The notes under the pieces are model-generated. The model did no database searches, was not told the origin of the DNA, and saw only the letters and a program-made list of their open reading frames with translations. A DNA stretch of 64,000 nucleotides from Acidocella sp. (GTDB lineage: Bacteria; Pseudomonadota; Alphaproteobacteria; Acetobacterales; Acetobacteraceae), in assembly GCA_027308685.1 (NCBI GenBank), contig DAIDEE010000061.1, positions 62,001 to 126,000 on the forward strand, written 5' to 3'. Position 1 is the first letter of the stretch, and each line of letters begins with the position of its first letter. Made by a program: the position numbers and the translations under genes. Of this stretch, positions 6,426 to 8,399 are shown piece by piece.

Positions 6426-6526
6426 GTAGTTTCCGAGTCTGCCCAGCCCCTTGCCAATGGTGCTTAAGGGCGTGGCAATTGCGAATGACCAGACCCGCGT
6501 CTTGGGCGTGCGTAAACCACCGGAGA

Positions 6527-6555
6527 TTGACACAGATCAAAGCGAATTCTCTAAC
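6527..6555 (+). promoter_or_regulatory. Predicted sigma-70 promoter overlapping an FNR/FixK-like box
   Basis: Bases 6527-6540 read TTGACACAGATCAA, a 9/10 match to the FNR consensus half-sites (TTGAT-N4-ATCAA). The same bases 6527-6532 form a perfect -35 hexamer TTGACA, followed after 17 bases by TCTAAC (4/6 match to -10). The box would centre near -28 of the inferred start of transcription, a position that favours repression. It lies 58 bases before the cytochrome-porin start codon. Both readings are inferred from sequence. Confidence 0.5.
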
Positions 6556-6597
6556 TTTCACCGTAATGACGGCTACATTTTAAGAACGGACAAACAA

Positions 6598-7941
6598 ATG
6601 GCCAGAATTACCACCGATCACCTGCCTTGGCTGCCTGCAGCACTTGTCATCACCGGATTGATCGCAACGGCAGACCCGGCACACGCTATACCAGCATTTG
6701 CCGCCCAGACCGGGGAGCCATGTTCGGCCTGTCACATCGGGTTTCCACAGCTCACCCCTTATGGGCGTGAATTCAAGTTGGAAGGCTATGTCGCGGGCGG
6801 AATGTTCCCGGATTTCAAAAACCTCGCGGTGATGTCGCAAATCGGCTTTACCCATGTGCAAAACAAGGTTGCGGGTGGTCTTGCCACCAATTACCCCTCC
6901 AATAACGCCTGGTCAGTGCAACAAACAAGCATATTCTACGGCGGTGCGCTGGACGCTAAAATCGGTCTTGGGGCTTTTATTCAGGCCACCTACAATGGCA
7001 TCGGCCATACCTTCAGCTGGGACAACACCGACATCCGGCTGGCACGACTCACCACCTTCCTTAAAAAACCGCTATTCTACGGGTTCACCTTCAACAACAA
7101 CCCAGGTGTAACCGATTTATGGAACACGCCACCCGCCTGGGGTTATCCGTTCCTGCCCGACGCGTTGGGTGCCGGTCCGCCAACGGCCGTGCAGTTGGCC
7201 TCGCTGGGCGGGCAAGTCATGGGCCTTGGCGGTTATGGTGCGATGAACATCACACTGAGCGACATGCTGTACGCGGAAGGCAACGTTTATCAATCGCTTC
7301 CCAACAATCTGGGTCATACGCTGGGGGCTGGTTACAGCCCGATCGCCGGGGTAATTCCGTATGCGCGGGTCGCCTGGCAGCATAGCTGGGCGAGCAATTC
7401 CTTTGAACTCGGCGCCATCGGCCTGGAGGACAACCCGATCCCCAGCGGCATCTCGCACGCCGCTGCCGATCACAAGATGGACCTAGGGGTTGATTCGCAA
7501 CTGCAATTCATCTCGGCCACCCATGCACTTTCGTTGCAGGCCGCCTATGTGCATGAATGGCAGCACCTGTCTGCAAGTTATGCCGCTGGCAACAGCAGCA
7601 ACCTGAACGACACCCTTGATACCGTGACGCTGACAGCCTCGTATTTATACCACCAGAAATACGGCATCACCGAGACCTACAGTAATATAGTTGGCAGCGG
7701 CGATGCCCTGCTTTATGGTACTGCCAATACCAAGCCCGATACGAGCAGCTTCACGACCGAGGTTGACTATTACCCCTGGAATAACGGCGGTCCATCGTTC
7801 TTCCCCTGGGCGAATGCTAAGTTATTTGTTGAGGCGATCGTCTATCCTACCTTCAACGGCCGCAGCAGCAATTACGACGGCGCGGGAGCCAGCGCGAATG
7901 CCAATAACCTGTTATTCACTGGCATCTGGCTCGCTTTCTGA
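6598..7941 (+). CDS. Cyc2-like outer membrane cytochrome-porin fusion
   Basis: A 447-residue protein. A Sec signal peptide (residues 1-30, ending PAHA) is followed by PAFAAQTGEPCSACH, a single c-type heme site at residues 42-46. Then come FPQLTPYGREFKLEGY and about 380 residues of alternating, aromatic-rich beta strands, ending in a terminal Phe (GIWLAF), the outer-membrane insertion signal. A CxxCH heme at the extreme mature N-terminus, a P-x-L-x-x-x-G-R-x-F-K block and a 16-strand-size barrel are the architecture of Cyc2, which moves electrons from extracellular Fe(II) across the outer membrane. The family also occurs in organisms not known to oxidise iron, so the donor is unproven. ATG 6598 is chosen because the signal peptide begins there and the promoter lies upstream of it. 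Confidence 0.82.
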   Translation: MARITTDHLPWLPAALVITGLIATADPAHAIPAFAAQTGEPCSACHIGFPQLTPYGREFKLEGYVAGGMFPDFKNLAVMSQIGFTHVQNKVAGGLATNYPSNNAWSVQQTSIFYGGALDAKIGLGAFIQATYNGIGHTFSWDNTDIRLARLTTFLKKPLFYGFTFNNNPGVTDLWNTPPAWGYPFLPDALGAGPPTAVQLASLGGQVMGLGGYGAMNITLSDMLYAEGNVYQSLPNNLGHTLGAGYSPIAGVIPYARVAWQHSWASNSFELGAIGLEDNPIPSGISHAAADHKMDLGVDSQLQFISATHALSLQAAYVHEWQHLSASYAAGNSSNLNDTLDTVTLTASYLYHQKYGITETYSNIVGSGDALLYGTANTKPDTSSFTTEVDYYPWNNGGPSFFPWANAKLFVEAIVYPTFNGRSSNYDGAGASANANNLLFTGIWLAF

Positions 7942-7964
7942 AACTTTTTTGTAGGGAAACTGCA

Positions 7965-8357
7965 ATGACATCCACGAGCAAATTATTTGGCCTGGCAACC
8001 GGCGTTCTGATGCTAGCCGGCGCCAGCGCCGCCCATGCGGCAGGCGATGCCGCCAAGGGCGCCGGCGTTTTTCAAAGCCAGTGCGCGATGTGCCATGGCG
8101 TGACAGTCGGTGCCAATGGCATCGGGCCATCGCTTGCCGGGGTTTATGGCAAGCCCGCCGCAAGTGTGGCGGCTGGCTACGAGTACTCACCGGCGCTGAA
8201 GGGTGCGAATCTGACTTGGAACGATGCGTCTCTGGATAAATTCCTCGCGGCCCCGCAAAGCGCGGTCCCGGGCACTAAAATGCCTTACGCCGGGCTGCCG
8301 GATGCGGCTGACCGCGCCGACGTGATTGCTTACCTGGCCACACTTACAGGTAAATAA
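7965..8357 (+). CDS. Periplasmic class I c-type cytochrome
   Basis: A 130-residue protein with a cleavable signal peptide (cleavage near AHAA, residue 26). It has one heme-binding motif CAMCH near residues 40-44 and a distal Met in GTKMPYAGL near residue 106. The NGIGPSLAGVYGKPA segment and C-terminal ADRADVIAYLATL helix are those of mitochondrial-type cytochrome c/c2 proteins. It should carry single electrons in the periplasm. It starts 23 bases after the cytochrome-porin gene, behind an AGGGAA ribosome site, and is almost certainly cotranscribed with it. This makes it the likely electron acceptor or donor of the outer-membrane cytochrome. Confidence 0.92.
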   Translation: MTSTSKLFGLATGVLMLAGASAAHAAGDAAKGAGVFQSQCAMCHGVTVGANGIGPSLAGVYGKPAASVAAGYEYSPALKGANLTWNDASLDKFLAAPQSAVPGTKMPYAGLPDAADRADVIAYLATLTGK

Positions 8358-8372
8358 TCAGCTCCATTAAAG

Positions 8373-8399
8373 CCGGGGCGCTTAGCGTCCCGGTTTTTT
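8373..8399 (+). terminator. Rho-independent terminator after the cytochrome pair
   Basis: CCGGGGCGC-TTA-GCGTCCCGG forms a nine-pair stem (one G-T) followed directly by TTTTTTA. It lies 16 bases after the cytochrome c stop and reaches the last codon of the convergent flavoprotein gene. It may work in both directions, though the opposite strand has only a short T run. Confidence 0.88.

Follow-up and report, generated by a model that had tools for sequence, protein, structure and literature searches.

Homologues of Cyc2, the outer-membrane cytochrome-porin of Acidithiobacillus ferrooxidans, have already been published for Acidocella (PMC10715153, PMC10654088, PMC8357290) and were placed with the Acidithiobacillus protein (PMC10715153, PMC10654088); what is said here of these and of the other cited papers refers to excerpts of their text. 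An acid mine drainage metagenome-assembled genome (MAG) of Acidocella was described with a Cyc2-like gene, and the organism may use this Cyc2-like cytochrome for Fe(II) oxidation (PMC8357290). A deranged bc1 complex has also been published for Acidocella, and the homologues were proposed to feed cytochrome c oxidase (COX) past it (PMC10715153). How heterotrophic acidophiles (Acidocella, Acidiphilium) exchange electrons with iron, and why COX is retained in them beside a ruined bc1 complex, are unsettled questions. A two-gene locus that bears on both, a cyc2-like gene followed by a cytochrome c gene (cytC), lies in the window analysed here, i.e., a stretch of 64,000 nucleotides from Acidocella sp. 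(GenBank assembly GCA_027308685.1, contig DAIDEE010000061.1, positions 62,001 to 126,000, forward strand). The pair is a member of the kind already reported in Acidocella, and it probably passes electrons between extracellular iron and the respiratory chain. New here are the family-wide evidence for the partner, a missing arginine in the published motif, the state of the bc1 complex and the terminal oxidases, and a plasmid-borne module. An initial annotation of the window had read the locus as a Cyc2-like fusion protein with a partner cytochrome in an acidophilic alphaproteobacterium, and the architecture, the barrel prediction and the published Acidocella homologues bear out this reading.

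The cyc2-like gene (6598-7941, plus strand, as are all features of the locus) encodes a protein of 447 amino acids (aa) with an N-terminal monoheme segment and a predicted 16-stranded beta-barrel. Its start resembles a signal peptide (6598-6687) that, as judged by eye without a predictor, is probably cleaved after AHA (residue 30). The heme c motif CSACH (residues 42-46; 6721-6735) is the sole CxxCH of the protein and is followed by a PQLTPYGREFK block (residues 50-60; 6745-6777) and by the barrel (residues 76-446; 6823-7935), and the C-terminal residue is Phe. The signal peptide, the single CxxCH, the PQLTPYGREFK block, the barrel and the terminal Phe had been named in the initial annotation, and they were recovered from the sequence and the AlphaFold2 model. 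The structure prediction of the barrel that had been suggested there as a check was made from a 39-sequence alignment and gave 16 strands, with a mean pLDDT of 76.5 and a pTM of 0.79; residues 1-43 had a pLDDT below 50, so that the position of the heme segment in the model is unreliable. Foldseek returned 717 matches in the PDB, and among the best 50 of these 717 the best 29 were outer-membrane barrels (AlgE, VhChiP, OmpU, OmpT, PorB and other porins), OprO held rank 32, query TM scores spanned 0.27-0.48, E values went down to 5.6e-8, and the general outer-membrane barrels found included no single closest family. As regards the features by which the Cyc2 family is recognised, a 16-stranded porin barrel is predicted, the PXL four residues past CXXCH is present (CSACHIGFPQL), and the protein, with 447 aa and one CSACH, lies within the length rule of the PMC8406198 pipeline (at least 365 aa plus a heme-binding site).

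At the level of sequence comparison, the Cyc2-type cytochrome-porin and its partner were confirmed as genuine, beyond chance, because the ratio of nonsynonymous to synonymous substitutions (dN/dS) of cyc2 is about 0.05, near-full-length homologues occur in 25 of 38 genus-level genomes, and three relatives share the gene order. The ratio was obtained with L013, the closest of the named relatives (Nei-Gojobori dN 0.065, dS 1.31); two other cyc2 pairs gave dN of 0.078 and 0.124 with dS of 1.63 and 2.69, which is near saturation, and the gene is, by these estimates, under strong purifying selection. In the genus-level sample of 38 genomes, which includes the window's own genome (G000), the homologue was near full length in 25, partial in 2 and absent in 11, and one partial copy (G034, residues 392-447) is located at a contig end. 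The other (L094, G026:C59:232506-232784) covers residues 12-104 only, lies inside a 446-kb contig and looks like a degenerate remnant. The named relatives with 80-89% identical Cyc2 are Acidocella MAGs. In the window's group of relatives the locus looks chromosomal and settled, because the order GGDEF-cyc2-cytC-FAD oxidase-Fe-ADH-pyrE-isocitrate dehydrogenase is kept in G037, G036 and G006. A profile search of the wider family found homologues in 82 of 299 genomes and 35 of 102 genera, and 29 of the 43 named homologous loci were acidobacterial. A search of 398 genomes sampled from the phylum yielded 88 matches, with no rus operon recognised by eye, and without a family search, around ten of the hits.

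The published motif AXPXFAR[Q/K][T/Y], which precedes CXXCH, reads AIPAFAAQT in the window, agreeing at six of seven fixed positions with Ala in place of Arg. Of 120 collected homologous sequences, 52 had Arg here, 51 had Ala and 17 some other residue; by this count, Arg does not bound the sampled Cyc2-like group. The collection contained some genomes twice; dropping 7 duplicates and adding the window left 114 rows for the tree, 7 of them from a distant family, f38, presumably Zetaproteobacteria. Rows were collected by regular expressions that fixed P, T and CxxCH and restricted position 37 to Q/K/R as well as other motif positions, and nine loci that yielded no sequence under these expressions were left out. 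Invariant columns were P32, Q37, T38, C42, C45, H46, G56, F59, K60, G125 and G162; the invariance of P, T38, CxxCH and similar positions is partly by construction, because the collecting patterns fixed them, whereas G56, F59 and K60 were invariant in 114/114 rows though outside these patterns. Among columns of His, Met or Lys, H46 and K60 alone are conserved in at least 70% of the rows; the sole conserved candidate for the distal heme ligand is K60. In a quick maximum-likelihood tree of the 114 sequences, with SH-aLRT support only, the window grouped with L013, L014 and L015 (support 100) inside a 35-row clade with Acidocella and Acidiphilium sequences (support 100), in which all 35 rows have Ala at the motif Arg position. 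The published motif, applied strictly, would miss this clade. The remaining sequences of the sampled bacterial family are scattered over several places in the tree, which suggests more than one arrival, and those of f38 sit across a very long branch. Inspection by eye of six loci with a same-strand diheme neighbour (L024, L185, L216, L226, L228, L229) showed Arg in each, and the Arg state is also found with monoheme partners.

The partner gene (7965-8357) begins 23 nt past the stop codon of cyc2, in the same orientation, and encodes a monoheme class I cytochrome c of 130 aa, with CAMCH at residue 40, a Pfam Cytochrom_C match above cut-off and Met106 as the likely distal heme ligand; the class I cytochrome c that the initial annotation had placed here is thereby upheld. 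Its likening of the pair to the cyc2-cyc1 order stands as to position and fails as to the partner, which is monoheme, whereas Cyc1 of Acidithiobacillus belongs to the c4 cytochromes (PMC10654088). Of the 38 genus-level genomes, 12 contain a match at least 60% identical to the window's cytochrome (next best 56%). The distance between this match and that of cyc2 is 23-62 bp in every case, and all 12 genomes are cyc2-positive, for which the naive probability given 25/38 is 0.002, kinship uncorrected. For the wider family, 40 of 101 profile match rows were hand-picked with the own genus excluded, and one without a cyc2 open reading frame (ORF; L183) was dropped, leaving 39 loci; pairing was scored when a cytochrome similar to the window's partner (blastp E <1e-10) lay within 1.5 kb of cyc2. 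A related monoheme cytochrome was found in this way at 25 of the 39 loci, on the cyc2 strand in 23 of them, after cyc2 in 15 and before it in 10; the other 14 comprised one locus with a diheme gene (L185) and 13 with neither. By the same measure, other genes of the same windows gave 4/191 (Fisher p ~1e-19, with loci that are non-independent and genes that come from our own simple picker). That the cytochrome varies in its position around cyc2 argues for a functional tie between the two, and in many Acetobacteraceae such a cytochrome is, by the family-wide pairing, probably the direct partner of Cyc2.

The respiratory setting of the genome provides the context for the proposed function. G000 has two CydA-family hits and one CtaD above cut-off, taken as aa3-type, with no second, weaker CyoB-like hit of the kind found in many relatives. 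Its petABC operon (G000:C66; L132 4961-7497) was read from a tblastn-based alignment. Canonical signatures are CTHLGC and CPCHGS in the Rieske protein and PEWY in cytochrome b. The Rieske protein of G000 reads CELLGN...CPCDGS, with both His ligands lost; in cytochrome b, Ser replaces the first bH His, the second is kept and PPWY stands for PEWY; and cytochrome c1 keeps CASCH. The bc1 complex looks non-functional. NapC/NirT was matched in 0/38 genomes, with a positive E. coli control, and neither of the quinol routes searched (bc1 and NapC) looks usable in G000, other quinol-cytochrome c enzymes not having been searched. Rusticyanin (TIGR03095, cut-off 146.7) reached the cut-off in 0/38 genomes, and it was rejected as the missing link in this organism because G000 had no TIGR03095 match at all; rusticyanin-like proteins below the cut-off, with up to 102 bits, were seen in 9 of the 38 (L245, L246 and seven further genomes).

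We propose, with just better than even confidence, that a Cyc2-family outer-membrane cytochrome-porin and its periplasmic monoheme partner carry electrons from extracellular Fe(II) to the aa3 oxidase. Extracellular Fe(II) would reach the heme in or at the outer-membrane barrel and donate one electron, which would pass from the Cyc2 heme to the periplasmic partner and from there to aa3. We infer the outer-membrane location, Fe(II) as the donor, the step from CytC to aa3 and the direction; inward flow is favoured because the searched quinol routes look unusable while an oxidase that should need reduced cytochrome c is present. In Acidocella the pair would serve as an auxiliary, downhill electron input, and would give no basis for autotrophy because bc1, which is needed for uphill transport, looks non-functional.

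Several observations weigh against inward flow from iron. Cyc2 membership by direct comparison rests on the published placement of the Acidocella homologues; Acidocella and Acidiphilium have been described as Fe(III) reducers (PMC8790237, PMC8305228), and the excerpts of these two papers hold no report of Fe(II) oxidation by either genus. CtaD exceeds its cut-off in 5 of the 11 Cyc2-negative genomes (G004, G007, G012, G016, G029), so that aa3 is also kept without Cyc2, and periplasmic dehydrogenases could reduce the cytochrome instead. Among the 25 genomes with near-full-length cyc2, 13 entirely lack a CytC counterpart of 60% identity or higher and have weaker matches away from cyc2, and one of the 12 partner matches (G008) has an in-frame stop. 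A plasmid module, finally, speaks for outward flow in a closely related organism. A tblastn search among plasmids gave nine records with a Cyc2-like match, and on pACRY03 of Acidiphilium cryptum JF-5 the Cyc2 is 57% identical to that of the window and the neighbouring cytochrome 66%. PLSDB types pACRY03 as conjugative and A. multivorum pACMV3 as mobilizable, with a different replicon type. On both plasmids, cyc2, the cytochrome gene and a TcuB-like gene lie beside ubiT, ubiU, ubiV, pdxS, pdxT, nrdD and nrdG (pACRY03, L259 452-12228 and L260 38820-39932; pACMV3, L261 20428-35927). PdxST bypasses the O2-using PdxH, and NrdDG bypasses the O2-using reductase. The UbiT, UbiU and UbiV of pACRY03 exceed the NCBIfam cut-offs, and UbiTUV constitutes an O2-independent ubiquinone synthesis pathway (PMC6747719). 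With such neighbours, the pair might run outward, the partner being reduced by periplasmic dehydrogenases or an unrecognised quinol route and feeding Cyc2, and through it extracellular Fe(III), at low oxygen. A. cryptum JF-5, which carries pACRY03, was able to reduce Fe(III) even anaerobically, and Cyc2 has been proposed as an Fe(III) reductase in Acidithiobacillus (PMC8790237). In the genus sample, UbiU/V (U32 family) occurred in four genomes and NrdD in five (four over cut-off), all of them cyc2-positive; however, this co-occurrence is not significant (chance 0.17 for UbiU/V, 0.11 for NrdD), and these genes and cyc2 are found on separate contigs in every genome but G021, which has them ~80 kb apart on one contig. 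G000 itself has no UbiU/V or NrdD match, and with bc1 deranged and NapC not found, neither searched route from quinol to periplasm is left there. Because their compared proteins are 93-98% identical, the two plasmid modules count as one event on two replicons. The cyc2 of pACMV3 is split into two ORFs, and Acidiphilium growth requires small amounts of oxygen (PMC8790237). We therefore regard outward flow in the window's organism as rather unlikely. A direction-neutral mobile cassette, in which Cyc2 and its partner run inward to aa3 in aerobic Acidocella and the plasmid version serves anaerobic Fe(III) growth in Acidiphilium, is a more doubtful idea still, weakened because of the same oxygen requirement. 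If true, a single plasmid might enable an aerobe to grow anaerobically on Fe(III), Cyc2 acting as the terminal reductase, and the TcuB-like protein might possibly substitute for bc1. The open-licence literature yielded no paper naming pACRY03 and none combining Acidiphilium, UbiV and anaerobic, and the mentions of plasmid in the excerpts of PMC10715153 are unrelated to the Cyc2 plasmid module. A plasmid of Acidithiobacillus ferrooxidans YQ-N3 (L057) is 100% identical to pACRY03 in each covered protein, with nrdD and nrdG outside the stretch, and this identity may reflect a very recent transfer or Acidiphilium DNA carried over in culture.

Two further explanations concern what the conduit carries and whether it is one. 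A Cyc2-family conduit could serve a non-iron extracellular redox partner, such as humic substances or another metal. The spread of homologues over 82 of the 299 family-sample genomes and the predominance of acidobacterial loci are in line with this, and to our knowledge most genomes bearing such homologues are not those of known iron oxidisers. The function of the homologues in Cluster 3, to which the window's protein may or may not belong, has been called most uncertain (PMC8406198); the characterised Cyc2 members, however, oxidise Fe(II) (PMC8406198), and no positive evidence points to another substrate, which makes this explanation distinctly improbable. Alternatively, the protein might be an ordinary porin whose heme motif arose by chance or is vestigial; this would agree with the general barrels among the Foldseek matches mentioned above and with the profile searches, in which no Pfam or NCBIfam model reached E 0.1 with the 447-aa protein. 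A PDB sequence search gave one match for the protein (E 0.1) and none for the family profile, hence no relative. The invariance of G56, F59 and K60 past the heme motif, the low dN/dS and a cytochrome gene that travels with cyc2 (25/39 vs 4/191) speak so consistently against an ordinary porin that we give it hardly any credence. Electron transfer between extracellular iron and the respiratory chain, inward from Fe(II), remains the favoured reading of the pair.

Upstream of cyc2 lies a GGDEF gene, with 172 nt between the two. The position 6451, at which the initial annotation had begun the locus, is an in-frame TTG ahead of the gene, and translation from the ATG at 6598 gives, by eye, the signal-peptide-like N-terminus. 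A promoter scan of the region returned three promoter-like sites (1.7 expected from shuffles), none of them on the plus strand ahead of cyc2. Behind cytC, a probable intrinsic terminator (8373-8399, plus strand; a 9-pair stem with one G-T, a 3-nt loop and six T) was recognised by eye and is absent from the list of the terminator scan. The surroundings of cyc2 differ elsewhere in the sample. An aminotransferase gene adjoins cyc2 at 11 of the 14 loci L081-L094, and at 11 Acidocella-group loci without the partner cytochrome (L081-L090 and L092) cyc2 is flanked by WD40-repeat and aminotransferase genes. In L087 and L081 a run of glutamine synthetase-like, deiminase-like and permease genes then follows, and that of L087, going by Pfam names, looks like polyamine breakdown. 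Genes of the ccmE/ccmF type for cytochrome c maturation were seen near cyc2 in L074, L075 and L078 (G021, G015, G022), and in G021 and G022 a cytochrome with three CxxCH adjoins it. In L257 (6770-8491, G695) the cyc2-like gene is followed by that of a 105-aa small protein that is cupredoxin-like by eye, possibly a third type of partner.

Among described systems, the homologues of Acidocella MX-AZ03 and other Acetobacteraceae (PMC10715153) share with the window the genus, the fusion, an adjacent mono- or diheme cytochrome, the deranged bc1 and the retained COX; the family-wide pairing count, the Arg-to-Ala change and the plasmid module are not found in the portions of that paper at hand and are reported here. 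With Mariprofundus ferrooxydans PV-1 Cyc2, a member of Cluster 1 (PMC8406198), the window's protein has in common the 16-stranded barrel, predicted in our case, the N-terminal heme segment and the motif core. A difference is that the sequences of f38, presumably Zetaproteobacteria, sit across their very long branch and match our profile mostly over the first third or less. For the heme, PMC8406198 quotes a potential of 560 mV for A. ferrooxidans Cyc2 and gives a measured 208 mV for that of the neutrophile PV-1. The Cyc2 of A. ferrooxidans and its rus operon resemble the window in the outer-membrane cytochrome-porin, the cytochrome gene directly downstream and the acidophilic host (PMC10654088, PMC8790237); in contrast, the window's partner is monoheme and not a c4 cytochrome, the neighbours are GGDEF and FAD-oxidase genes instead of cox and rus, and G000 lacks a rusticyanin match, so that, judged by its gene content, the locus is not a rus operon. 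The pACRY03 pair is plasmid-borne within a module for anaerobic biosynthesis, whereas the conserved surroundings of the window's copy include pyrE and an isocitrate dehydrogenase gene.

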